Assembly (NCBI GenBank): GCA_964006375.1
Contig: OZ023264.1
Span: forward strand, 176,238,010 to 176,302,009
From: Tillus elongatus
Lineage: Eukaryota > Arthropoda > Insecta > Coleoptera > Cleridae
Direction: 5' to 3'
DNA length: 64,000 bases
Position 1 is the first letter of the stretch; each line of letters starts with the position of its first letter. The notes beneath the pieces were generated by a model. That model did not search any database. It saw only the letters and a list, made by a program, of their open reading frames with translations, and was not told the origin of the DNA. The translations under genes and the position numbers were made by a program. Below, piece after piece: positions 29,215 to 62,425 of this stretch.

Positions 29215-32138
29215 CTTTTTTTTTTTTTTTTTTTAATTTTAACAACACACCACGAGGGCTTAAAGCCTAAATACTATCGTACTGTGGGTGTTGACAAGGA
29301 GGAAAGAGGCAACTTGTTAATTCTGGACTTGAAGGTTTGGAGGTTCGGAGCAGAAGGAAAAACATGTGCCGGCAAGAAATTCCACAACTTGGAAGTCCTC
29401 GGGACAAAAGAGCGGGCATAACAAGATGTTCTATGTCTGGTGACCTGGACAGTAAAAGGGTGCATTCGCTCTGTTCCCCTGGTAGATCTGTTGGGGGCAG
29501 CAGGTGGGGGAACTATGGAGGAAAGCTCCTCTGAGCAGTGCCCGTGCAGATATCTATAAAAGAGAGAGAGGTCACCAACAGGACGTCGGTGGGCAAGGGA
29601 TGGCAGCCTTTGGGTGAGGGTAGGGTCACCGATGAGACGTATAGCTCTCTTTTGAATGGAGTCCAGGATAGCGAGTGTAGAAGCGGCAGCTGCACCCCAG
29701 ATGTGGGAGCAGTATTCGAGGTTTGGCCTTATTTGTGAAGTATATAAGGTATAGAGATTAGCTGGTGAAAAGTATTTGCGAGCCCGGAATAGGAAACCTA
29801 ATTTCTTAGCAGCCGCTTCTGCAATTGATGTGACATGTTGGTGCCAGTTAAGATTTCGATCCACAGAAATGCCAACAAGAGAAAAGGACTCATTACTTTG
29901 AATAACTTGGTTGTTCATTGTAATGGGTCTAGGGCTGGTGTATCTCTTATGAGAAAGAAAGCAAGACTGAGATTTGGTGGGGTTGAATTGTACAAGATTT
30001 CTACTTCCCCAGTCTAATATTTTTTGGAGATCCACGGAGACAGAATCCTCCATGAGTCTGCGATCCTCATCTAATTGGGCTAAAGAGACAGGCTTAGAAT
30101 ATTGTATATTTGAGTGGAGGGTGCTGTCGTCCGCGTAACTGTGAACTGGGTTGGATGTGCTAGAGAGGAGGTCATTGATATGGAGAAGAAACAAAGTAAG
30201 GGCTAAAGCTGAACCTTGAGGAACTCCTGCATTAATTGGATACAGTTTAGAGGATTGGCCATCCACAACAACAGAAATGTTCCTGTTGGAGAGGAAATTT
30301 GCTGTCCAGATACAAAGTTTTGGTGGTAGGCCATAGGCCGGAAGTTTATTAAGCAGCGCTGCGTGCCAGACCTGGTCGAATGCTTTGGATATGTCTAGAG
30401 CAACAATCTGAGATTCACCGTGTAGTTCCATAGACTTGTTCCAAGAATGGGTGACAAAGGAAAGGAGGTCGGCAGTCGATCTGCGCTGACGGAATCCATA
30501 CTGCCTGTCGTGGATTAGACTGTGTTTTTCAAGAAATTTCAGTAATTCGGTGTTTATATACTTTTCCATCACTTTAGAGACGACTGAAAGGAGAGAAATA
30601 GGCCTGTAGTTGCCTGGAAGCGCTTTGGATCCTTTCTTGGGGATGGGTTGTACTCGAGCAGTTTTCCAGTTACTAGGGAATATGCCTTTATTGTAAGATA
30701 TCTGAAACAGACGAGTCAGAACAGGAGCAAGTTCTGGTGCGCTGATCTCGTCAAGGCCAGAGGCTTTCCTGGTATTAAGTGAAGAGAGCATCTTTCGTGC
30801 CTTTTTAGTTTTGAAAATGATATCCGTCATTTTATGTGCGACATTGGGGACTGTTGGTGGTTGAACATTTGGAGGTGGGTTGAGAGTAGAATTGCTGGCG
30901 AACAACGAAGCAAAAAGTTCAGCCTTGCCCAGGGCGGTAGAAACAATTTCATCCCCTGAGACAAGAGGTGGGAACGTGCTTTTGCAGAAATTATTCCCAA
31001 TAGATTTAGCAAGAGTCCAGAAGGGTTTGCTGCCGTTGGAGCTTGAGAGGACTTTGTTTTTGATGTGGTTATTAAACGAGTTTTTTGCCTCAGAAAGAAT
31101 GCGGACATAGCGGTCTCTTGCGTCGTTAAATGCTTGACGATTTTCTTGACTGGGATTGTGAAGAAGTGTTTTGTGAGCTTTGATCTTTTCAAGTCTGGCC
31201 TTGTCACAGGATTTAGAGAACCAGGGCTTTTGAGTGGCTGAAGAGGTTTTCTGTGTACGTGGAATAAATAATTCCATGCCAGCTTGGATAATTTCGGAGA
31301 CGTTTTGTGAGATATCAGAGGGGTCAGGATGAGAGAAGCAGACAGACGCCCATCGAAATGAGGAAAAGTAATCCCGCATTTCGTCCCAGTTTGCGGAGTT
31401 GTAGTGCCAAACGATACGTGGGTGTGATGACTGTGTGACCTCGGGTTGCATTGCGCAGGAAGCAGTGACCATGCCGTGGTCTGAGCGACCAAGAGTGGCG
31501 GTGACTGATATGTTATAGCACTCAGGTTTTGTAGTAAGAAGGAGATCCAAGGGATTTGAGCTGTGTGTTGGGATACGAGGAAAGTAAGTAGGTTGCTGAA
31601 CCATATTGGCTAAAGAATTGCTGATTGCAAAGGCCTCCGCTGCTCTCCCTTGTGGATCGGTTTTTGAAGATCCTAGCCATTCCTTATTATGGACATTGAA
31701 GTCACCAAGAATAGTGACCTCGGAGGAAGGATATTCAGAAATCAGATAGTCGGTTTTTTCAGAAAGGTAGTCAAAGAGCTGGACAAAGTTGTTGTCAGAA
31801 GGTGACCGGTAAATGCAACAGATGAATTTAGTTGCAGCCCTGAGAGAGAGTTTTATCCATAGTATGTCTTTTCTTCCAGCTTCTAAATTGGGGAGTCTGG
31901 TGCAGGGTAGATTGCTGCGGACGTATGCGCACACGCCTCCATGCAATCTAAAGGAAGTAAGGAGCTCATACCCCGGGAAATTAAGGTGATTAGTGGCTGT
32001 TTTGGCACTGATTTGGGTTTCGGTGAGGAAGAGGAGTTGGGGCCTGTTAGCCTGGAGGAAATGGTGGACGGAGTTCAGGTTAGAATTTAGGCCACATATA
32101 TTCGAAAAGGATATGTTAAATTGCGATGTTGGCGCCCC
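29215..32138 (-). mobile_element. Jockey/CR1-like LINE, copy 2 (best preserved)
   Basis: Minus-strand non-LTR retrotransposon. It ends in a poly(A) tail read as a T-run at about 29217-29235. The 5' end is truncated near 32138, where similarity to copy 1 stops; copy 1 has about 60 more bases to its ATG. There is no second ORF, as the first (gag-like) ORF of Jockey/CR1 elements is absent. It carries one long frame encoding endonuclease and RT. Confidence 0.9.
29274..32133 (-). CDS. LINE ORF2: endonuclease and reverse transcriptase, start truncated
   Basis: A single open frame of about 953 codons. In order it shows an APE-type endonuclease (ILGDFNVHNKEW near 31700, SDHGMV near 31480), the RT palm motifs NYRPISLLS (about 30590), RQYGFRQRRST (about 30490), ALDISKAFDQVW (about 30390), GVPQGSAL (about 30210) and YADD (about 30130), then the thumb and C-terminal region. 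The protein would nick DNA and prime reverse transcription there. The frame has no ATG at its open end because the 5' end is lost; the first Met-like codon is TTG at 31946. Compared with copies 1 and 3 it lacks about 8 codons in-frame after GLDEI, near 30740, which could damage the fingers region. Confidence 0.9.
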
Positions 32139-36789: not shown

Positions 36790-37900
36790 GACAGAGTTTA
36801 TCTAATCGACTGGAACTCATAACTCGTCGTTGTCATCGTTCCCGTATTAGCTAGTAAATGCTCAAATAGGTTTTCGTGTCTCCAGGTAGACAGCTCAGTA
36901 TATAGTTGTTAATTTCCCAGACGGATGCATTCGTGTGGCACAATATGGCACGATCGGCAGCATTAAGTTCAAAATGTCTGCCAAACACGGTCTTCAGCAA
37001 CCACAGTCTCGTGGAAATGACAATTCGTTGCGAAATTTTGACTACGTCGGTGGGAACATGTTGATCCGTCGTACTGACAGTTATATGTGTTAGCCGTCCG
37101 GCTCCCAGGCGAACTAGCCAATCAGCAAATGCCGATTCATCTGTTCCGGCACCGACCTTTTCGCTCAACTTGAAGTGGCTCATTTGTCTCCACAAACTGC
37201 CGGCGCTCAAGGTGGCACCAACTATTTCCGTACGATGTGCTCTCGAGCATCTGTTTGCATGAGATCTTTCAACTGCTTTCCTGTGGGCCGTCAATGCCTC
37301 GTCCCATATCAATAGTGCAGCATCTTTGATCAACAGGGCGTGCGCAGACTCCACGTGAAACCCAGCCCTAGAAGTTTCAGTGATGTTCAGTGGCAGTCTG
37401 AACGCACTGTCTGCCGTCTTGCCACCCAAAAGCAACGATGCTGCGATTCCGGTCCAGGCCACAGCAACGCAACCTTTTCCGTATCGGCGACGAAGATCCT
37501 TGATGATAGTGTTGAACAGGAACGTCTTGCCAGTTCCACCAGGAACATCAACGTAGAAAATATTTCTTGTCGTAAGCGTGGTATCTTCCAATGCTTCTAT
37601 AACATGGTCATATATGGTCTTTTGACCTACGTTGACAACGCCGCATCGCCTTGGAAATTGTTGAAAGGTCCTATGCTCTCGTCGTTATCTGACGGATCGT
37701 CCCCGACGAATTCAACATTGACGGACAGAAGGCCAAACTCCTCCAAGGTGTGGTTTCCGTTTCTGGCCAGTATCGTGGAAATGTGATGCAGTGAATTGGC
37801 CTCGGCTGCCTGGTCCGAGAAACCACGCAGTACGAAGTCACCAATTAAGTGTGAACGATGAACGAGCCACATGTTGCGAATAATATGAGCGATGTAAGTT
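36790..37900 (-). pseudogene. Helitron Pif1-like helicase fragment
   Basis: The minus frame 36851-37591 shows a Walker A motif (GGTGKTFLFN), AWTGIAAS, a Walker B-type IWDEA and the later AGRLTHITVS-like and NINNYIL-like blocks typical of the Pif1 helicase half of Helitron Rep/Hel proteins. A second frame upstream (37627-37872) holds the preceding segment. A stop or frameshift near 37600 separates them. The Rep nuclease and the helicase C-terminal motifs are absent, so this is a broken rolling-circle transposon. Base composition is GC-richer than the surroundings. A host Pif1 gene is less likely because of the break and the mobile-element neighbours. Confidence 0.82.
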
Positions 37901-49329: not shown

Positions 49330-50207
49330 TTAACTGAAACAATTGCAACAAATATTCAATTCACCATTTTGATATAAACAATATCGCAACCTATTATAAA
49401 ATGCCTTTCGAACTTTTGCGAGTTGTTGGTTATTAACGCGTGCACATTCAGCAAAGATAGCCTTCCTCAAAGAATTAATATTTGGGTGACGATTTTTATA
49501 GGTTTTGTTTTTAAGGTGACCCCACAAGAAGAAGTCACAAGGTGCCAAATCGGGAGATCTAGCCGGCCACTTAATATTACCACCGCGACCAATCCAATGA
49601 TTAGGAAAAAAATTATCTAAACAGGTTCTTACGTCTACACCAAAATGAGCTAGACCCCCATCCTGCTGAGGCCAGACTTCCCGATTTTCATTTGCAACTT
49701 CGTCTAATGCAGAACATACCTTATCTACCAAAAGTTTCAAATAATTTTCTAAATTTAAATTGGCAATTAATTCACACGGTCCAATGATATGATTATTAAA
49801 AATGCCTGCCCAAATATTAATTTTCTGAAGGTATTGGGATCTCGTCGAAAGTTGTAACCTTGGGTTTTGTTGCGCCCAGTATCTTGTATTCTGTACGTTA
49901 GGTTCATTATTAAGCGTAAACGTGCACTCGTTAGTAAAGCAAATCGTTGAAAGGAAATGGCGATCCAGATTGGCGCGTTCAATAACATCTTCACAAAATA
50001 CACGCCTGCTCTCTTCATCTATTGCGAACAACTGTTGATGGCACTGCGGCTTGTACGGGTGGTAGTTGTGTTTTTTAAGGATTTTCCGCACACGCTCCCG
50101 AGAAACACCCCATTCTTTTACTGCAACTCTAGTACTTGTAGTGGGATTGACATTTAATAACGCTAGCACCCTTTCCTCTAGTTCTGCATTAAGTTGTCTT
50201 CTAACGC
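49330..50207 (-). CDS. Tc1/mariner-type transposase, exon 2 (catalytic)
   Basis: About 292 residues after splicing from a minus-strand acceptor AAACAG at 50208. A helix-turn-helix region (VSRERVRKILKKHNYHPYK) is followed by the DDE-type catalytic domain. The first acidic position reads CFTNECTF where relatives have SDE, so the first catalytic aspartate appears to be asparagine. The second is in WPQQDGG and the third in SPDLAPCDFFLWG, 41 residues apart by my count. The frame is open to the stop at 49330. The upstream TTG (50229) lies in the intron and is not a start. If the D-to-N change is real, the enzyme is probably inactive. Confidence 0.82.
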
Positions 50208-50251
50208 CTGTTTCATTATAAAAGTACAATAATATTGCAATAATACAAATT

Positions 50252-50257
50252 CAGCTG
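50252..50257. other. Target-site duplication, left copy (CAGCTG)
   Basis: Identical to 58507-58512 and immediately outside the AG...CT termini. Confidence 0.9.
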
Positions 50258-51290
50258 AGTAGATAGTGCCCCACCTGGGCTCACCCCCTCCACTTTTTAC
50301 TGCGCATGCGCGAGTCATCATGCGCATGCGCTGACCTGCGCAGACCTGTGACAGTTGACAGCTGACCTGTCAGATTTGACAGGTGTCAAATGTCACTGAC
50401 CTGACAGCTGTCAACGTCAGCTGTCACCTGACCTGACATGTGTCAACGTCAAATGTCACCTGACCTGTCAGATGACGTCACAAGCATTCCAAGATGGCTG
50501 ACCTGTCATAGACAGTCGCAAGCCGGGTTCTCTCTATGGAACTAACCTGAGATGACGTCACAAGCATTCCAAGATGGCTGACCTGTAAGAGACATCTGCA
50601 ACTCCGGGGTTCTCTCTCTATGGAACTAACCTGAGATGACGTCACAAGCATTCCAAGATGTCTGACCTGTGTGTCCATAGATATCTACAAGTCAGGTTAG
50701 CTCTCCATGTGTGTTTGTCCGATTGTTTATTAAGGTTATGTATTTGTTTATTAAGGTTATGTTCGCTCACGTGTCATCTGTTTGTTTATTAAGGTTATGT
50801 TTGTATTTGTTTATTAAGGTTATGTCATGTGTGTGTGTGTTGATTACCATGCATCTGTTTGTTTATTAAGGTTATGTATTTTGTTTATTAAGGTTAGGTG
50901 TTCGTAAACACAGCTGTTTGGTTTGTTTATTGTGTTGTTGTTGTTAAGGTGTATTGAAGTTTGTTAGGGTATTTCGTTTTTGGCGGGAAATTTGAATTTG
51001 TTTGAAAATTTGTCTGTTGTGTCCAGAGATCTTACTCCTCAAGCTAGAGAACATTCTATTTGTAAAGTTGTAGAGTGTAGAGAATATTCTCTAGCTCGAG
51101 GGGAGACATCTGTTGGACACAGTCATTCGGTTTAGTCACACACATACATATATGAGGAAGATATATTGAGCGGGTAATTTGAAATTTTGAATTTAATTTG
51201 AAATATGATTTTTGAAAGAAAAGCATTCGCCAGAAATTAGATTTGAACCCCCAACCATACAACTTACTAAGATATGCAAACGCCCCTAAA
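50258..51290. repeat. Left terminal inverted repeat
   Basis: Near-identical to the right end for about 540 bp, then partly aligned to about 51290. It contains, in order: two GCGCATGCGC palindromes (about 50303-50335), a block of CTGACAGGTC-type palindromes, three units of about 82 bp each starting gatgacgtcacaag (50471, 50551, 50635), and six ttattaaggttatg units (50730-50905). A segment at about 51220-51295 is a tRNA-like remnant shared with the right end. Confidence 0.88.
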
Positions 51291-52093
51291 CCGATCATGC
51301 TATTCAGACATACGATGAAAGTTTGTTATCAGTGGGTATATATATAAAACAGAAACCTGTTACATAAAACGAGTTTATGAGGCTGCTGAGTTTGTGTGTG
51401 TAGGTAGGGGTGGTATCTCTATTACATTCCAATTGAATAATAGGAACTGTAATGTTAAAAACAATTGTTTATTTATAGTAAAAAGAAATTTAAAACACGT
51501 ACCAATTTACCTATCTAATATCATTTAATAACAAAAACGTTTCAAGTAAACTATATCAATAAGAAAAACGTATTTACATCTAGATATGTTAATGAGTTTA
51601 TTTTAATAGCCTAATAAAACTCGGGGACTTGGTTTTATTGCCGGCGTGTTTGTTTATGTTAGTGTGTTTGTATTTTGAATGAATGAATCTAAATTTATAT
51701 AGGGAGTGATCAAAAACACACAAGTAACAAAACTCAATTTAAAACAACTAAATTAAACTTTGATATACGAGGATTGTTTGATAAGTATTGTTTGTATGTA
51801 AACATAAATAATATAATAGTATACTTACATACAGCAAGAGACGTCATACTTGTTTCACGACTTAGCACACACTAACGTATGTTGAGGTCTTGAATGGGGC
51901 CCCGTTATAGAAATAACACAGTTGTTTAATGACATCCACTTGAACCAAACAAAACATATAGACGCTGTTGTTGATTGTTAACACACACACAAGCACTCTA
52001 TGACTAGAGAGTTATAGATGTACAACGGTCGTCGTACACAAGCCAGTCTTGTGTTTGATTCCGCAAAAACAAGAAACATTTTAGTTCCATACT
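51291..52093 (+). promoter_or_regulatory. Leader upstream of the zinc-finger gene
   Basis: No frame. About 51815-51870 (acatacagcaagagacgtcat) is shared, inverted, with about 57205-57255 and 57695-57715 in the right arm, so it is part of a repeated regulatory segment rather than unique sequence. Confidence 0.5.
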
Positions 52094-52909
52094 ATGGCGT
52101 TCTCAATTGTTGGAGAGTCGACTACAAGAAACAGTCGTTTTAATATTATACAGAACATGGTGCATTTCAAGTTGAATCCACTCAATAGCAGTGGCGTCAA
52201 TAATCCTGAACAATGGCTTAAGAACGGTATGCAGGAAATTTATAATCGAGTTATTAGAGACTTGAACACCGACACCAAAGTAAGCTTTACATTCTCCGGC
52301 TTGGATAGAGACTATCATATGCCGTTTAGGAAGCTGTCGTTGCTGACGTTTGAAGAAGTGTGGTCTGAGCTGTACAAGATGTATCAGAGCAATAAGGGGG
52401 CCATTGAAGGTGATGCCTTTACTATAACAGCTACAAGTCTAGGATCATCACAGCACCAGCAAGCAACCACTTCACAAGGTTCTGGTTTGTCGACGCAGCA
52501 GCAGCACCAACAGCAGTTTAATGAAATCAATCTACAAGAGAGTGAAGAAGAACATACAGCCGCGAGACCAACAACAACAACACAACCACTAACACAGGAT
52601 GACAAGCAAGAACTGAATGATGATGGTCTCCGTTGCTGTGTCATTTGTTTTAAACGCTGTCCACCAACAGAGAGAAGCTGTTGTGACAAATGTTTCATTA
52701 AAAATGGTCAAAACTTGGGAAAATGGCTACCATACAACGCACACTCATGGGAAAGTTATGAAAATTTCGTAAAATGGCAATACACGTACGACAGGAGGAA
52801 GGTTACATGTTTACACTGTAATAAACAAATGTTGAGAACGTCCATTTATAGACACAAACAAATATGTCTAAAGAGAGCTGACGTCGATCCTAGGCCTGTA
52901 AACGAGTAA
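52094..52909 (+). CDS. Zinc-finger protein with Polinton polymerase-leader-like domain
   Basis: 271 residues from ATG 52094. Residues about 25-115 (HFKLNP, then PEQWLKNGMQEIYNRV, then MPFRKLSLLTFEEVW and YQSN) resemble the N-terminal segment that precedes DNA polymerase B in arthropod Polinton-like proteins; this is pattern recognition, not a search. Residues 115-170 are Gln/Thr-rich linker. Residues 181-200 form a cysteine cluster (CCVICFKRC...CCDKC) and C239, C242, H254 and C258 a C2HC finger. No polymerase follows. It may bind DNA at the repeats. A poly(A) signal aataaa lies 46 bp after the stop. Not a known named family to me. Confidence 0.75.
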   Translation: MAFSIVGESTTRNSRFNIIQNMVHFKLNPLNSSGVNNPEQWLKNGMQEIYNRVIRDLNTDTKVSFTFSGLDRDYHMPFRKLSLLTFEEVWSELYKMYQSNKGAIEGDAFTITATSLGSSQHQQATTSQGSGLSTQQQHQQQFNEINLQESEEEHTAARPTTTTQPLTQDDKQELNDDGLRCCVICFKRCPPTERSCCDKCFIKNGQNLGKWLPYNAHSWESYENFVKWQYTYDRRKVTCLHCNKQMLRTSIYRHKQICLKRADVDPRPVNE

Positions 52910-52949
52910 AAAGTATGTCGCTCTGTACACATGTCCATAACAGAATACA

Positions 52950-52962
52950 TAACACAATAAAA
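52950..52962 (+). terminator. Poly(A) signal of the zinc-finger gene
   Basis: acaataaaacag about 45 bp downstream of the stop. Confidence 0.6.
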
Positions 52963-52984
52963 CAGAGAACAAACAACATGGTTA

Positions 52985-53255
52985 TGACTCATATCTTGTA
53001 GAATGACATCATACCATTATTCGTGTTTGAGCTTGTCTGTGTATCTGTTTAATATACGCAAGTGAGAGGCCCTCTTAGGGTAAATAACCTGTCTGTTGAT
53101 GACCTTGATCTGATAAACCTGTTTGACGTTGTCTTTACAGTTATGATCTAAGGGGTTAGTTCTGTTAGGTGGTATCCAGCCATCAGTTGTGTTTGAGCTT
53201 GTCTAGAAACTAGTTTTGTTGGTGTACGTTGAACAAGGTGTAACTAAAAACTAAT
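52985..53255 (+). promoter_or_regulatory. Shared promoter-like module upstream of the second gene
   Basis: Contains tgtttgagcttgtct twice (about 53028 and 53190), gaggccctctta and ttaaataacctgtc-like blocks. The reverse complement of the same order of blocks lies at about 56985-57150, upstream of the minus-strand KilA-N gene. Confidence 0.65.
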
Positions 53256-54224
53256 ATGGTGCAGAATACGCGAAAACGAAAATCTCTCAACACAGAAAAT
53301 ACAGGTAGAGGTGCTGGTGGAGGTAAAAAGCTTAAAGTGTTACAAGATGTCTTGCTGGCTAACGCAGTTGAAAGTATTATAACAAAAGAAGAACCAAAGA
53401 CGTGGGATAATATCATAGGTGAGCTGTACACAAGCTATCCAACAACAACAAACACAAGTGAACCGAATAATCTCTCTGATATTAGTATGAATGCTGCAGA
53501 TCCTACAAACATACAAACAGTCGAATATCAGCCTACACACGATGAGCTATTCAATGAGAAGTTGGTGCAGATCAATCAGAAAAGTATGGAGAAAAAACTA
53601 AAAACACAAGACTGTGAGCTCGTTGGTCAGACAACGTTTGCGCTGTTGGCAAACGGTGAGAAAATACTTACGATCGGAGCTGACCCCATGCTTAACTTTA
53701 TGCCTCTGGTTAAGGTTTCACAGAAAAATTGTAATATACCTGTGTTTTTCGACATGTGGACATTTGAAGAATTTTTAAACGTGTTACCCACCATAATTTT
53801 CAACCTGGAAAACCAATCACAAGGTACAGACAAAAACACCGATTCGTATACACTTACTAAATACTTGGTTCAAACACAACGAAAATCAGTGTTTTTTAAG
53901 TTTAGGTTGTGCAGTGATGAATATGTCACTAATTTCAACCTAAGCTTGGAATCATTGAAAATACTAGAAGATGTTGGCTCTGTGGTCAAAGACTTATTAT
54001 TGGAATTACGTTTTAGGAGTTTCTTTGACCTAAACATGTTTATGGCTGACATTAGATCGGAACTGTCCAAGTTCAGAGACAGGGCAGTTATACCTTGTGC
54101 CTTCTTCATTGCCCGCTTAAAATACTCTGAGAATCTGTGTATAGTGTGTGAATTTATTACTAAATATCAACTTGTACTGAAAGATATGCTAACATGTAAC
54201 AGATTTACCTATAACACTAGTTGA
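53256..54224 (+). CDS. Unknown 322-residue basic-tailed protein
   Basis: I do not recognise this with confidence. The N-terminus has a nuclear-localisation-like TRKRKS...GGGKKLK (residues 5-27), then a low-complexity linker to about residue 100. The core (about 120-250) alternates predicted strands and helices: ALLANGEKILTIGADP, MPLVKVS, FFDMWTFEEFLNVLP, then SVFFKFRLCSDEY. It is faintly like PC4/p15-type single-strand-DNA-binding folds found in some arthropod Polinton-associated proteins, but this is weak. A hydrophobic, cysteine-bearing C-terminus follows. aataaa overlaps the stop region. Intact, so probably useful to the element. Confidence 0.7.
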   Translation: MVQNTRKRKSLNTENTGRGAGGGKKLKVLQDVLLANAVESIITKEEPKTWDNIIGELYTSYPTTTNTSEPNNLSDISMNAADPTNIQTVEYQPTHDELFNEKLVQINQKSMEKKLKTQDCELVGQTTFALLANGEKILTIGADPMLNFMPLVKVSQKNCNIPVFFDMWTFEEFLNVLPTIIFNLENQSQGTDKNTDSYTLTKYLVQTQRKSVFFKFRLCSDEYVTNFNLSLESLKILEDVGSVVKDLLLELRFRSFFDLNMFMADIRSELSKFRDRAVIPCAFFIARLKYSENLCIVCEFITKYQLVLKDMLTCNRFTYNTS

Positions 54225-54235
54225 TAATAAAATAT
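54225..54235 (+). terminator. Poly(A) signal of the second gene
   Basis: gataataaaat directly after the stop at 54222-54224. A minus-strand signal (tttatt, about 54346) for the opposing integrase tail lies 110 bp downstream. Confidence 0.6.
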
Positions 54236-54366
54236 ATGTGTAAAAATCTCTGTGTTTTATTAGCTGTATTTTCTGACAATCATTCTGTTGGCGTGAATGC
54301 ATAAAGGAAGATTTGAAATAAAAAAATACTTTTAACATGTTTCCTTTATTCATAACATAATACAAG

Positions 54367-54495
54367 TTATTTAATGTCTTTAGTGTTGACCCAGGAATTA
54401 TGAGTACGATCAAAACCAAGCCATTTCACGTAAGACTTGGGGCCTTTTTTTCTCAACACTCGTTCGATTAAATACAGGTCAGAAGATAACTGTCA
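54367..54495 (-). pseudogene. Chromodomain tail of a Polinton-type integrase
   Basis: About 42 codons on the minus strand, too short for usual ORF lists. They read LYLIERVLRKKG, then YVKWLGFD and HNSWVNTKD, stopping at TAA 54367-54369. This is the chromodomain that ends Polinton and related retroviral-type integrases, where it guides the enzyme to chromatin. Upstream (rightward) the frame meets a stop and then the minisatellite, so the catalytic core is gone. A poly(A) signal lies about 20 bp past the stop, as in the ancestor gene. Confidence 0.8.
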
Positions 54496-54950
54496 TACAG
54501 GTGTCTAACACAGGTGTCTAACACAGCTGTCTAACACAGCTGTCTAACACAGCTGTCTAACACAGCTGTCTAACACAGCTGTCTAACACAGCTGTCTAAC
54601 AGACAGCTGTCTAACAGACAGCTGTCTAACAGACAGCTGTCTAACAGACAGCTGTCTAACACACAGCTGTCTAACAGACAGCTGTCTAACACACAGCTGT
54701 CTAACACACAGCTGTCTAACACACAGCTGTCTAACAGACAGCTGTCTAACAGACAGCTGTCTAACAGACAGCTGTCTAACAGACAGCTGTCTAACACACA
54801 GCTGTCTAGCAGACAGCTGTCTAACACACAGCTGTCTAACACACAGCTGTCTAACAGACAGCTGTCTAACAGACAGCTGTCTAACACACAGCTGTCTAAC
54901 AGACAGCTGTCTAACAGACAGCTGTCTAACACAGCTGTCTAACAAGACAG
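54496..54950. repeat. 15-bp minisatellite (acagctgtctaacag)
   Basis: About 30 units of acagctgtctaaca(g/c), beginning with 13-bp versions (54500-54600), then regular 15-bp units with g/c variants. Each unit holds CAGCTG. The long LDSC- and VRQL-type minus frames here are artefacts of the repeat. Confidence 0.95.
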
Positions 54951-55036
54951 CCGGACATCGTGATAAATAAGAAGGCATGTACCGTGACAGAGTCAGTATA
55001 TGTTAAACCACCACACAACCTGTATCGCTCAAACAA

Positions 55037-56203
55037 ATGATTAGACCGACTGGTAACACCAAAAACAGTTGTAGCACAATGGAAGTGTTGGGTAAGGAAG
55101 AGCAAAAAGTTAAGAAAAGGATTTTACAACTTGCTGACAATATTCGAAAAAAACATTTAATGCTTAAACTTAACAGAGCTGAGAATGATGATGCTCTGCA
55201 ACGTTTATATAAACCACTTGTTGACCCCCTAAGTGAAATATCTAAAAACACAGCAGCACTGCAGCAGCAGCAGCCACCGCAACCACTAAAGGCTGAACAA
55301 ATCAAAGACGAAGTCGATATACCAGAAACGAAACCCCAAGTACAGTTCCTGAAAGACGATGAAGTTTTTGAAGCTGAACCAAGGGAAGAGGCTGAGGCGG
55401 CAAGTTCCGATGAGGATATCCCAACATTTGAAGAGCTTGAGGCAGACCTACAAACTGTCACAACCAACCCTGCATATCAAGAATTTTTGGAGCAATATCC
55501 TGACCGAGTTCGATATTATGTAGACAAGTATTTTACTGAACCACCAAGGCTCGGTACCATTGATCAAACGTATGGTGCCCGCTACGCTAAAGATACCGGT
55601 AGCTGGAGTCTTGGTAACAAACACTTAGACTTTACTGATGCTGAGATTCAACTGGGCCAAAGGAGATACCCGCAAACACAAGGTTTGCTAGAATTGTTAT
55701 TTATGAAAAGACCCCGGGGGTATACTTATGACGATCTTCAACACTATAGAGATATTCTAGAAGCAACTAGTGTTTATAAAATGAACTATGATCCTAACGC
55801 ACGAACCAAGGGTTGTTCCTCTGAAAAGTATCTGACTCTAATAAAACCAGTGATAAATCCACGAGGTCGTAGATCCTCAACACCTCAAGGTTTTGGTTAC
55901 ACCTACGAGGAAGACGATGACGACAGCACCGACAGACATCTTAACAAAAAACAAAAGACTGAACTTAAAACTCAGAGTGATAAGAGCAGCGATAGCAACG
56001 GCATGAGCCCAAACAACATCAGCACCAACAACTATATGATACAAAATAACAAACAAATAGCCTATGTGTATTGGAATGACATAAACGAGTTGGTTGACAG
56101 ACTTAGACTTTTAGTGGCTTCCCAAGTTGCAGGTAATAATGCTCATAACAACGAAATTCAGTCAATCTTGGAAGAACTAAAAGAAGCTAGTGTTATCACC
56201 TAG
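55037..56203 (+). CDS. Unknown 388-residue protein with DUF8207-like core
   Basis: From ATG 55037. Residues 16-55 form a Lys-rich coiled-coil-like helix, 74-90 are Gln/Pro-rich, and 85-145 are acidic. The core (about 144-275) has QYPDRVRYYVDKYF, GARYAKDTGSWSLGN, QTQGLLELLFMKRP, and YRDILEATSVYKMNYDPNAR. I associate this pattern with a domain of unknown function (I believe DUF8207) recurring in arthropod Polinton-like and repeat-linked proteins. A low-complexity acidic/Ser/Asn linker (about 285-335) precedes a C-terminal helix. No function can be assigned; the order suggests an element-encoded structural or replication accessory. aataaa follows at about 56333. Confidence 0.72.
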   Translation: MIRPTGNTKNSCSTMEVLGKEEQKVKKRILQLADNIRKKHLMLKLNRAENDDALQRLYKPLVDPLSEISKNTAALQQQQPPQPLKAEQIKDEVDIPETKPQVQFLKDDEVFEAEPREEAEAASSDEDIPTFEELEADLQTVTTNPAYQEFLEQYPDRVRYYVDKYFTEPPRLGTIDQTYGARYAKDTGSWSLGNKHLDFTDAEIQLGQRRYPQTQGLLELLFMKRPRGYTYDDLQHYRDILEATSVYKMNYDPNARTKGCSSEKYLTLIKPVINPRGRRSSTPQGFGYTYEEDDDDSTDRHLNKKQKTELKTQSDKSSDSNGMSPNNISTNNYMIQNNKQIAYVYWNDINELVDRLRLLVASQVAGNNAHNNEIQSILEELKEASVIT

Positions 56204-56332
56204 TAAGCCCACAGCCATGAAGAGACACCAACGACAACAACAACAACAGCACCAACACAACACTGAACCATCTAATGTTAATAATTCTATAAATGTATTC
56301 CAACAAAGAGTTTACATACTTGTACTTAGAAT

Positions 56333-56343
56333 CAAATAAAAGT
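56333..56343 (+). terminator. Convergent poly(A) region
   Basis: aaataaaagtc on the plus strand for the 388-residue gene, and tttattttg (about 56365, minus strand) for the opposing KilA-N gene. Confidence 0.6.
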
Positions 56344-56445
56344 CTTTGTTAAAATTACTGTGTTTTTATTTTGTAATACAATTAAAAAGTATGTCTTAAA
56401 GCAATAATATCCTGAACAAACTTATCTTGTGGTACATCTGCTATG

Positions 56446-56500
56446 TCTGTATTCTAGACAAGCTCAAACACGAATAATGGGGTGATTGAACAGATATGTT
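56446..56500. promoter_or_regulatory. Extra copy of the shared module overlapping the KilA-N stop
   Basis: tctgtattctagacaagctc followed by aaacacgaataatgggg nearly repeats about 57003-57050. The KilA-N stop codon lies in it, so the last codons of that gene come from duplicated regulatory sequence. Confidence 0.6.
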
Positions 56501-56832
56501 GGTGTTACTTGAGCTGTTGCTTCCGTTTTAAGGGGGCTAGTAGTCCGGCTCCCTGGCGATAACTCTAAGTGGGCTCCCTCGGTTGAAACACTTGTCATGT
56601 TGTTATGCTGAAACCCCAACTGTTCCTTCAGACGATTGTTGTAATAGGCAATCAACTCTTTGGTTTTCTTATTTTCCATCCAATGAGACATTTTTTTATT
56701 GCTAATCTTACACAGTTTAGTTGCATTAAAATAGCCAGTGTTTTTATCAATAATAAGTTGAAAGTCTCCAAATAGACCATACCAGAAGTTGTCTTTAATT
56801 TGTTGGTAACACACATCACTTAATGTAGCCAT
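56464..56832 (-). CDS. KilA-N domain protein, 122 residues
   Basis: Start chosen at ATG 56832 (context tcaaaATGGct); the longer frame to 56886 opens only at TTG. Residues 14-68 match a KilA-N domain: FWYGLFGDFQLI, NTGYFNATKLC, then the helix SHWMENKKTKELIAYYNNRL. KilA-N is a DNA-binding domain found in phages, baculoviruses, poxviruses and other large DNA viruses and, less often, in mobile elements. The C-terminal tail is short and Ser/Thr-rich. It is transcribed toward the 388-residue gene and shares its upstream module with the second gene. It is the element's only gene of clearly viral-type family; it may regulate or attach the element. Confidence 0.85.
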   Translation of the reverse strand: MATLSDVCYQQIKDNFWYGLFGDFQLIIDKNTGYFNATKLCKISNKKMSHWMENKKTKELIAYYNNRLKEQLGFQHNNMTSVSTEGAHLELSPGSRTTSPLKTEATAQVTPTYLFNHPIIRV

Positions 56833-56984
56833 TTTGAAACAGATTTGGGTTAGAACAAACTGCAGTAAGTCTTTTCTCAACAACAACTGACTTGTGAATA
56901 TGTTTAAGAGTGTCTGTGTGTAACCTATTTATACATATTACCCACAGTAACCGTTTTAAACTGTATTTGTTTTTACATGGATGA

Positions 56985-57160
56985 TGTCATACTTCTAATG
57001 ACTGTATTCTAGACAAGCTCAAACACGAATAATGTGGGGTTATTGAACAGATATAACACAAGGTCATCAACTGACAGGTTATTTACCTTTAAGAGGGCCT
57101 CTCTTGTGTATATTAAACAGATACACAGACAAGCTCAAACAGGATCAAGGTTAACAACTG
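56985..57160 (-). promoter_or_regulatory. Shared promoter-like module upstream of KilA-N
   Basis: Inverse of the 52985-53255 module: gatgtcatac, ctagacaagctcaaacacg, gacaggttatttac, gagggcctctc and acagacaagctcaaac in order. Confidence 0.65.
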
Positions 57161-57174
57161 TAAAACGTTGTTTA

Positions 57175-57845
57175 TCCTTCAAGAGACAGAGACACTTGTT
57201 CAGTATGTGTTAAGTCGTGAAACAAGGATGACGTCTCTTGCTGTATGTAAGTACACTCTTATTATTATGTGTGTTTGCATTCAAATAACAAATACAAACA
57301 TAACCTTACTAAACAATCAGATGATTGGTAATCAACATGTATACAAACACCTAACCTCATATGTCAACAACAACTGGCTTTGTTTTATATATACAACAGC
57401 GAACAAACTTTTAACGTGTGTGTCTGTGGAGCTATTGGTTTAGGGACAGTGTATATATGTAAAGCAAACAACGGCTGATTCGAGGTTCGGGGGTTCAAAT
57501 CTAAGTTCAGGCGAATGCTTTTCTTTCAAATACACATGCATCTGTCAGTTTAAGCAAAGACTTTGAACTGTCATGACGTGTTTGTTAAACAGCATGTATA
57601 AGCTTCAACAATGGCAATCAGTTGTCTGTCTGTCTGTATCCTCAACACAGAAGACACCTGTTCAGTAGTGTGTGTATTAAGCTGTGAAAGAAGGCTGACG
57701 TCTCTTGTTGTATGTAAGTACACTCTTGTATTATCATGTCTGTTTGCATTCAAATAACAAATACAAACATAACCTTAACAAACAATCATATGACTGGTAA
57801 TCAACACGTGTGTGAACATAACCTTAATAAACAAATACAGACAGC

Positions 57846-57876
<31 letters not shown>

Positions 57877-58506
57877 ACATAACCTTAATCAACAAATACA
57901 AACATAACCTTAATAAACAATCAAAATGGCTTGGTAATCAGTCTGTATACGAACACCTAACCTTAATAAACAAAATACATAACCTTAATAAACAAACAGA
58001 TGCATGGTAATCAACACACATGACATAACCTTAATAAACAATCAGACAAACACACATGGAGAGCTAACCTGACTTGTAGATATCTATGGACACACAGGTC
58101 AGACATCTTGGAATGCTTGTGACGTCATCTCAGGTTAGTTCCATAGAGAGAGAACCCCGGAGTTGCAGCTGTCTCTTACAGGTCAGCCATCTTGGAATGC
58201 TTGTGACGTCATCTCAGGTTAGTTCCATAGAGAGAACCCGGCTTGCGACTGTCTATGACAGGTCAGCCATCTTGGAATGCTTGTGACGTCATCTGACAGG
58301 TCAGGTGACATTTGACGTTGACACATGTCAGGTCAGGTGACAGCTGACGTTGACAGCTGTCAGGTCAGTGACATTTGACACCTGTCAAATCTGACAGGTC
58401 AGCTGTCAACTGTCACAGGTCTGCGCAGGTCAGCGCATGCGCATGATGACTCGCGCATGCGCAGTAAAAAGTGGAGGGGGTGAGCCCAGGTGGGGCACTA
58501 TCTACT
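57175..58506. repeat. Right terminal inverted repeat and internal duplication
   Basis: 57205-57360 and about 57655-57800 are a tandem duplicate (tgacgtctcttg...tgtaagtacactc). Eight or so cataaccttaataaac units follow (57770-58050), more than on the left, with a GT-dinucleotide run near 57845-57872. 57970-58506 is the near-perfect inverse of 50258-50790. The first observed substitution is about 360 bp in (tcagctg versus catctgc types). Confidence 0.85.
57462..57530 (+). other. tRNA-like block in the right arm
   Basis: ggttcgggggttcaaatcta contains a B-box, and ttggtttaggg resembles an A-box. A diverged inverse copy is at about 51225-51295. No cloverleaf stem closes well, so it is not called a tRNA. 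Confidence 0.35.
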
Positions 58507-58512
58507 CAGCTG
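58507..58512. other. Target-site duplication, right copy (CAGCTG)
   Basis: Matches 50252-50257 exactly; it is a palindrome, so orientation is not informative. Confidence 0.9.
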
Positions 58513-58521
58513 TAAGCTTAC

Positions 58522-58735
58522 CATCCCTATTTTCTACTGCTACACCTGCAGTTTCTTCAAATTTTCCTAAAATACGTTGGATTGTGCTCACGGATGGAAT
58601 GGGTCGATCATGGTACTTAACTGAGAACAAATCTCGAACTCTTAGCAAACTGCCAGCACTGTAATATGTTTTTACAATAAACACTCGTTCCTCACTACTA
58701 TAGCAATTATTATTATTCATTTTAAAGCTTCTCAT
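58522..58735 (-). CDS. Tc1/mariner-type transposase, exon 1
   Basis: ATG 58735, 71 codons plus one base. Asn run (MNNNN), then a helix-turn-helix start EERVFIVKTYYSAG, VRDLFSVKYHDR, and VSTIQRILGKFEETAG. The donor GTAAGC follows. The end of exon 1 and the start of exon 2 give a continuous family-like sequence. Confidence 0.75.
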
Positions 58736-60990: not shown

Positions 60991-62425
60991 AGTTACGGCC
61001 AAAAGACTTGAGGGCTATACTTTAAAGAAAGTCACTCTGTACTAAATACTCTATATATTTCGCCTGTTTTCCAGGCATCCTCAGGAGCACTGAAATAATG
61101 AATAAAGTTAACATAACACCTAAATTATGTAACAAGGAACACTTACAGCACTGTAGCTAATTGAAAAAGCAAACCAGAAGCATTAAAACCAAGAACTTCT
61201 TCCATAAACACATGCAAAAAGCAGGAAGTGCCAACATCCTTTAAAAACACACGCAACTTTATGCGCACATTTGTACGTTAAAAACATTCAAAGCCAGTCA
61301 TGAAGAAGCATAAAAAAGAGTTAACAAGTTTAAAATGTCAAAAAGGCTTTGAAAAATTCACGTGTAAAAATTTGGACATCTAACCCCATTTTTATCAAGT
61401 TAGACACCGACCATAGACATCAGTGACAGCTGCAAACAAGAGACAGTCATTGATCATAGACTATTGCTATTCTATTGCTAATACATTTCTTATAAGTTAC
61501 TTTCTCATTCTAGATCATAGAACCGGCCAACATAGAGGCGCCATCAGACTTATCAAATAGTAATACATAACTGTATATGTTACTTAATTTTTGAATATCC
61601 GATTTTGAGTTCATAGTGTCATTTTCAAGAATATGACACATTTCCAGAAGGGAACTTTTTTTATTTGTTTCTCTATCCAAAATTCTAACATTATCAAAAT
61701 CTATGTTATGACCTAAAGTTGACCCACGATGTGCCAAAGCACATCTATCAGGTCTGAGTCTGGAATCACTCCTATGTTGACTAATCCTTTATACACCGGA
61801 ACTTGTCCTTGTTGTTAGTGAAAAAGTTGTCAGTCCACTGATGTAAAGTAACACTGTATATTCGACATTTAACCTCGGTTCAGAGGTGTCCCCCCCACCA
61901 TGTGCGGGTGGAGAAAGCCAATCAGGTGCTCGGCGAGGTGCAGGTTCAGATGGGACGCTGAAAAGTAGTTTCATCATGTAGCCTCTCTTATAGCCATTTT
62001 TTACGATCAGATCAGCAAAACTACACAAAGCCCCACGCTGAAAGGAGGGGTGAGCAATATCCAAAATCCGCCTCTTTATGCCCAATATAACATTCAATTT
62101 CATCTTCTCATCATGGTATGATGCACAGTTAATGTATCTTCCTAAACTGGAAGGCTTGCTATACCAATCTAACTTGATTGTATTATCAATACTTCTGTAT
62201 ACTCTAGTATCAAGAAAGGAAACACTTCTATTCATCTCTCTCTCAACGGTAAATTTAATGTGTTCATCAAAACCATTAAAAATATTTAACACTTCCTCCA
62301 CTGTATTATTAGGAATAGCAAGGATCAAATCATCCATGTATTGGTAGATAAAAGGCAATCTAAACGACAGACGTGGTATTGCAAACTTCAACAAGGATGA
62401 CATAACTATATTTGCCAACACAGGG
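60990..62425 (-). pseudogene. Penelope-like retroelement, 3' half with inverted junction
   Basis: Minus strand. 61789-62421 encodes the RT palm and thumb: LANIVMSSLL, YQYMDDLILAIP with the YMDD catalytic box, FLDTRVYRS, and DWYSKPSSLGRYINCASYH. The RNA-binding or GIY-YIG domain should follow, but the frame runs into unrelated sequence near 61950; 61510-61737 holds only the extreme C-terminus (AHRGSTLGHNIDF, DRETNKKSSLLE). The nuclease core is deleted. About 60990-61100 contains the usual downstream phrase of such elements. Dead copy. Confidence 0.82.

Follow-up and report, generated by a model that had tools for sequence, protein, structure and literature searches.

A stretch of 64,000 nucleotides from the beetle Tillus elongatus (contig OZ023264.1, positions 176,238,010 to 176,302,009; hereafter the window) contains, at positions 50258-58506, an 8249-bp element with Polinton-type ends and four ATG-started open reading frames (ORFs) of 271, 322, 388 and 122 codons, here called p1 to p4. 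The question raised by this locus is where so short an element came from, and by what means it moves and replicates. No integrase, capsid, ATPase or polymerase gene is encoded in the element according to its ORFs and their Pfam matches, and only a remnant of an integrase gene is present. The window element very probably belongs to class III, a chimeric and non-autonomous short form within a Polinton/adintovirus-like family; it is satellite-like in character and presumably moved and replicated in trans.

The bounds of the element are exact, with AG..CT ends formed by AGTAGATAG at 50258 and CTATCTACT at 58506, confirming the exact inverted ends reported in a preliminary description of this sequence; AGTAGATAGTG labels this end of the repeat. 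The inverted repeats, earlier put at about 1 kb with about 350 identical base pairs, are exact over 337 bp in an alignment of both ends, followed by 92.6% identity over 655 bp with indels, and extra mirrored blocks reach up to ~1.6 kb inward (a figure of 490 nucleotides at 100% for the arm is rounded and takes in the palindromic flank). CAGCTG flanks the element on both sides, as previously noted, but it is palindromic, so the window alone cannot set the duplication at 6 bp; other copies do.

Using the 490-bp left end as a query, a search of the window's own genome (1.72 Gb, 30 contigs) returned 1989 candidates at first look, and the 40 best-scoring places were scored, all of which (40/40) match the 490-bp repeat over its full length at a rounded 100%. 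These places correspond to 33 elements, sorted by reading flanks and inner stretches into 8 of class I, 14 of class II or class-II-like and 11 of class III, including the window element. Class I elements were assigned from both ends (five), the metalloprotease arm only (two) or the p1 arm with an intact integrase (one), and class II elements by reading inside (five, one of them rearranged) or by the arm only (nine); three of the latter (L014, L018 and L030) have a p3 gene about 6 kb inside. Exact 6-bp target-site duplications occur in 9 of the 12 elements with both ends seen (CAGCTG in the window, CCTGTA, GGTAGG, GAGGTT, ACTGTC, GATATG, CATGAA, GACACC, and ATATAC on C8 at outer ends only), while two are flanked by uninformative TA repeats and one matches at five of six positions. 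The search with the terminal repeat that had been proposed thus reveals a multi-copy family with differing 6-bp duplications, whose full-length relatives share the ends. The earlier assignment to recently mobile, non-autonomous Polinton-type elements is borne out by these ends and duplications, by the near-identity of copies, and by 17.4-kb relatives with a double jelly-roll (DJR) capsid protein, an A32 ATPase and an rve integrase.

The short form is a chimera of two lineages, and did not arise by the simple shedding of replication and packaging genes that had been supposed. Window positions 50258-54489 are class I sequence (98.5, 98.7, 99.6, 99.7 and 99.8% in five copies), and positions 54952-56497 are 99.4% identical to the class II elements L043 and L045. 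The breakpoint letters are identical in the window and 10 other elements, with homology of no more than a base, and the DUF8207 gene (p3) directly follows the array in 9 of the 11 class III elements, the pieces of the other two having ended within the array. One breakpoint in all 11 elements means that the short form itself has multiplied: class III was made once as a two-parent chimera, then copied and inserted repeatedly. Its copies measure 8249 bp (window), 8262 bp (C3:62551420), 7851 bp (C1:220816501) and 8274 bp (C8). The sister copy C3:62551420-62559681, with the duplication CCTGTA, has the same KilA-N deletion as the window element and is 99.8% identical to it over 3184 bp. In the class III copies read, p1, p2 and p3 are open, except for p3 of the C8 copy, which has an internal deletion. 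The C8 copy forms part of a composite (L034, L038; C8:60694585-60706355), where a truncated second class I/III arm follows it and ATATAC stands at each of the two outer ends.

Class I elements are 17360-17394 bp long in five cases. The C5 copy was read in two separate parts. Its genes specify a matrixin/hemopexin protein, a number of proteins of unknown kind, a DJR capsid protein (6.5e-58), a Pox_A32 ATPase (2.9e-08), a phospholipase A2 (PLA2)-like protein (1.7e-12), a DUF8207 protein, an rve integrase (3.7e-11, above the Pfam cut-off), p2 and p1. A 259-amino-acid candidate minor capsid protein, named by position only, is 52% identical to its class II counterpart, and the C-terminal Chromo match of the integrase is weak (E 0.0051; 17.1 bits, where the cut-off is 25.1). 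Four other class I copies contain the same genes without stops, and occasional alignment breaks (the major capsid protein in L040 and a 221-amino-acid gene in L035) suggest small indels. The integrase is intact in six class I copies, and divergence between class I copies amounts to 7 and 10 mismatches in 7.6-7.7 kb. The matrix-metalloprotease-like gene (L031:1446-3119; Peptidase_M10 at 1.2e-26 plus Hemopexin) was apparently captured from an animal host, and a core-like protein (L032:326-1132) bears a fused PLA2 domain of parvovirus type (PF08398, 1.7e-12); the core protein of class II is without the PLA2 part. No polymerase B was found among the ORFs of at least 110 amino acids in the C5 copy, and these ORFs leave no room for one. 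Because the 17.4-kb relative is without a polymerase-B gene, formation of the short form involved no loss of the polymerase. The suggested use of enzymes from a complete relative may apply to the integrase- and capsid-bearing relatives with the same ends, but these do not supply the polymerase.

The two complete class II elements without deletions are L043 (9064 bp, with GACACC duplicated) and L045 (9034 bp, flanked by TCAGAA/TAAGAA); when aligned, they show 4 mismatches and 40 gap columns among 9069. Their capsid protein is only 39% identical to that of class I, and they also carry a candidate minor capsid protein, a core protein, an ATPase (78%; in three fragments in L045), the array and a gene of the DUF8207 family that is 99.5% identical to p3 of the window. 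A 310-codon KilA-N/DUF3627 gene is also present in L044 and L033. Another element, L046 (C2:7398546-7408446), is rearranged: a class II arm and parts of the capsid genes are combined in it with integrase residues 155-321, p2 and p1. The gene set of the short form is not private, as had been thought: p1 and p2 also occur in class I, and the DUF8207 gene in class II.

These relationships point to a mechanism in several steps. In a single event, the integrase gene of a 17.4-kb class I element was broken, and the part with p1 and p2 was fused at that point to the half of a class II element that carries the array, DUF8207 and KilA; the chimera then multiplied as an 8-kb unit. Retroviral-type integrases require matching ends; class III and class I have identical ends, so the class I integrase could insert class III in trans, and it presumably does so while making the 6-bp duplications. 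Replication would most likely also take place in trans, by protein-primed polymerase B from other elements of the genome.

Such polymerases are present elsewhere. A genome search with polymerase B (PF03175) gave 809 candidates; 77 places were scored, of which 67 lie in open frames of at least 1000 amino acids (hand count). The nearest of the 77 is 105.8 kb from any of the 40 scored ends, and the smallest distance between a scored polymerase place and a scored p3 gene is 32 kb. In eleven cases, two polymerase places are separated by no more than 20 kb. Nine of these pairs are inverted, with spacings of 7.7-16.1 kb; the inverted pairs, C5:117391400/117403353 among them, are arranged as if inside long terminal repeats of another element type. 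Residues 1-118 of p1 match the N-terminus of one polymerase ORF with 43% identity (E 1.5e-28, single comparison), and the other proteins compared with p1 gave E 0.006 or worse. By sequence similarity, p1 is a putative stand-alone polymerase-B N-terminal domain without the polymerase, followed by a conserved cysteine-rich tail, which is also seen in two proteins from other data sets (53 and 45%). Structure prediction gives the domain a beta-alpha sandwich fold, a common type.

The array, which the preliminary description did not mention any more than the integrase remnant, offers a possible site of action. Each terminal repeat contains three copies of the dyad GACANNTGTC, and the array contains 14; the rest of the window element has none and the remaining 55.75 kb of the window one, and in four class I pieces the dyad is confined to the terminal repeats. 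The array thus multiplies a motif of the ends. None of 2000 shuffled terminal repeats contained three GACANNTGTC dyads (0/2000), a result limited by the position of the three dyads within a 32-bp tandem repeat, which makes them non-independent. When units are counted with simple patterns, array size varies across copies from about 29 to 68. TGCGCATGCGC (2) and TGACGTCA (3) are likewise enriched in the terminal repeat, and may represent NRF1- and CREB-like promoter sites. Most likely, p1 would act at the GACANNTGTC dyads in the terminal repeats, tethering the polymerase machinery there or competing for it, and the internal array, by multiplying these dyads, may recruit replication machinery or compete for it.

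Four open genes with poly(A) signals had been described. Three of them stand: p1, p2 and p3 exceed the longest ATG-started ORF (190 amino acids) in 300 mononucleotide shuffles of window positions 51301-57000, and AATAAA motifs lie just 3' of each (52956, 54226 and 56335). The fourth differs: p4, with 122 codons, is not beyond the shuffle maximum, rests on a KilA-N match (E 4.4e-14), and is a truncated form of the gene that has 310 codons in L033. For p3, 140 homologous proteins were found at E <= 0.001 (best 2.1e-53), mostly from unnamed contigs and hymenopteran genomes; the 120 homologues listed carry PF26634, and the DUF8207 conserved core and C-terminal motif are present in p3, which had no match in the Pfam copy used for the window ORFs. 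The p3 genes of L047 and the window differ by 15 synonymous and 13 amino-acid changes (ratio of nonsynonymous to synonymous rates, dN/dS, 0.23), and those of L047 and L043 or L045 by 17 and 13 (0.20), with P 1e-4 to 2e-5 for L047 against the three other copies under a simple neutral count. Between the window and L043 or L045 there are 2 synonymous and 2 amino-acid changes, without a selection signal. With one synonymous and one amino-acid codon change in p1 over 10 copies and one amino-acid change in p2 over 8 copies, p1 and p2, like the integrase, hardly vary between copies. Promoter-like blocks 5' of p2 (52998-53107) and 5' of the KilA-N gene (56974-57144) are mutual inverted copies and recur in class I (L031:3420-3609).

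It is quite possible, if not quite probable, that the element spreads by its ends alone and that p1, p2, p3 and the array are useless passengers, intact only through youth. The near-invariance of p1 and p2, the KilA-N gene that is already broken, and the p3 comparison between window and class II are what such passengers would show. However, the low dN/dS of L047 p3 argues for constraint, although this selection may date from larger elements, and the three genes have been kept open in the short forms read, apart from p3 on C8. A more elaborate alternative, that class II (the capsid set, ~9.05 kb) and class III (p1 and p2, ~8.2 kb) are complementary segments of a split, multipartite Polinton, appears unlikely. 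The lengths of class II (9064 and 9034 bp) and class III (7851-8274 bp) sum to close to 17.4 kb, the two forms have the ends, the array and the class II-type DUF8207 gene (DUF8207B) in common, their genes are complementary, and both are frequent among the scored places. Yet the size match may be chance, there is no sign of co-packaging, and, both classes being without integrase, the pair is not self-sufficient and class I is still needed.

It is highly improbable that the window element is a random internal deletion of a 17.4-kb element with no life of its own. One end is indeed class I with the integrase cut, and L033 and L046 show that deletions and rearrangements happen in the family. This reading is nevertheless contradicted by the breakpoint common to 11 elements at different places, by the array, which 10 class I pieces do not have, and by the class II origin of the other half, whose DUF8207 protein shares only 40% identity with the class I protein and has the opposite orientation relative to p1. 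Neither of the outcomes that the preliminary description had set against a family, a single copy or a random deletion with no conserved short form, was encountered. Membership of a different superfamily with 6-bp duplications, such as IS3EU or GingerRoot, has a virtually negligible probability, since those elements, which do make 6-bp duplications, end in TA..TA or occasionally TG..CA according to PMC10045372, as against AG..CT here, and since relatives with the same ends carry a DJR capsid, an A32 ATPase and an rve integrase.

Several points weigh against the interpretation of class III as a chimeric short form served in trans. Neither transposition nor particles were observed. No link of any class I copy to a polymerase element was made, and the polymerase N-terminus compared with p1 comes from one ORF in 1 kb of sequence (C5:117389950-117390950), in frame with the Pfam match, with ~450 bp between the two lying outside the sequence read. 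The p3 selection signal is limited to pairs that include L047, and no relatives of p2 outside the T. elongatus genome were found in the searches. The 40 scored places are the best of a far larger first look, so the class proportions are no census, and the class III copy on C8 lies in a composite with an assembly gap of 200 N, which makes the assembly there uncertain.

Among known systems, Polintons/Mavericks are alike in their 6-bp duplications and long AG-starting inverted repeats and, for class I, in the rve integrase, A32-type ATPase and DJR capsid; vertebrate Maverick repeats start with (AG)3 or (AGT)2 (PMC8097293). Unlike them, the window element is without these genes, the 17.4-kb relative is without polymerase B, and the gene sets are divided among elements with common ends. 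Adintoviruses, defined in PMC11071296 by a PolB with an N-terminal OTU-like domain, resemble class I in its DJR capsid and its integrase, whose C-terminal chromodomain match stays below the cut-off. The polymerase ORF to whose N-terminus p1 is similar continues into a stretch that looks OTU-like by eye; unlike adintoviruses, the window element and class I are without such a PolB. The same source describes virus genomes with adenovirus-type virion genes and without recognisable PolB and integrase. A DUF8207 protein is shared with Maverick remnants of Hymenoptera and bracoviruses: the best structural-library match of p3 is a Cotesia sesamiae bracovirus protein, DUF8207 is fused to an A32 ATPase in Trichogramma, and bracovirus genes derived from Mavericks are described in PMC2646287, where the array is without terminal repeats, whereas the family here has intact ends and recent copies. 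Shared ends, missing enzymes and presumed mobilisation by helpers are also features of non-autonomous DNA transposons and of defective or satellite viruses, but class III has retained three long open genes, is derived from two parents and presumably has helpers of at least two element types. In literature searches whose scope excluded subscription papers, no report was found of chimeric or divided Polintons of this kind, or of a Polinton family keeping integrase but not polymerase, with divided short forms. What is new is a chimeric short form within a polymerase-less family of known Polinton kind, and shared ends and duplications suggest that it is mobilised in trans.

Table 1. Features of the class III element and its insertion site (positions in the window).
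Feature	Position	Strand	Basis or remark
Target gene, downstream part (Tc1/IS630-like, weak Pfam match)	49330..50229	-	ORF and Pfam
Left target-site duplication, CAGCTG (palindromic)	50252..50257		6-bp length set by other copies
Left terminal inverted repeat	50258..50912	+	337 bp exact, 655 bp at 92.6%; 40 near-identical genome places scored
Three GACANNTGTC dyads, left repeat	50378..50444 (50378, 50403, 50435)		mirror at 58320, 58352, 58377
p1, 271 amino acids	52094..52909	+	residues 1-118 polymerase-B N-terminal-like; tail with conserved CxxC-type motifs (zinc-finger-like, by eye)
p2, 322 amino acids	53256..54224	+	also in class I
Integrase remnant, last 40 codons	54367..54489	-	comparison with class I integrase
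Chimera breakpoint, class I integrase to class II array	54489..54494		same in 11 elements
Array, ~31 palindromic 15-bp units, core ACAGCTGT	54497..54951		between p2 and p3; not in 10 class I pieces
p3, 388 amino acids, DUF8207 (PF26634), class II type	55037..56203	+	homologue search and alignment
57-bp copy of 56998-57054, at KilA-N deletion	56443..56497	+	self-comparison
p4, truncated KilA-N gene, 122 codons	56464..56832	-	Pfam match; comparison with L033
Right terminal inverted repeat	57866..58506	-	alignment with left repeat
Right target-site duplication, CAGCTG	58507..58512		read from window
Target gene, upstream part (DUF4817)	58505..58735	-	ORF and Pfam

The insertion site of the window element looks like a short intron (GTAAGC...AAACAG) of a minus-strand DUF4817/Tc1-like gene, to judge from splice-like motifs. 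Other mobile-element ORFs recognised by eye elsewhere in the window are an 890-amino-acid protein resembling those of long interspersed nuclear elements (29274-31946, minus strand), a PIF1-helicase-like ORF (36851-37591, minus strand) and a reverse-transcriptase-like ORF (61789-62421, minus strand). Within the element, a mirrored 42-bp block (57489-57530 and 51211-51252) contains a tRNA B-box-like GGTTCAAATC, seen by eye; ARAGORN found no tRNA there.

Polintons are usually treated as self-synthesising, with their own polymerase and integrase. In the present genome, a young multi-copy family has the polymerase in neither its short nor its 17.4-kb form, and what appears to be a polymerase N-terminal domain detached from its polymerase persists as a gene of its own. 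A far-reaching reading, which we regard as rather doubtful, is that a Polinton-type virus genome is spread over separately inserted elements with common ends, p1 being the adapter to a polymerase made by others. In this reading, polymerase B, the integrase with a capsid set, an alternative capsid set, and p1, p2 and DUF8207 would reside on four kinds of element. If true, this would amount to a network of Polintons, multipartite or satellite in nature, within a single animal genome. For annotation, the family is a warning that searches relying on polymerase or integrase can miss Polinton-type elements. Since its copies are dated, its breakpoint is defined and a candidate adapter is at hand, the division of labour, cheating and trans-replication of integrated DNA viruses can be tested directly in one genome.

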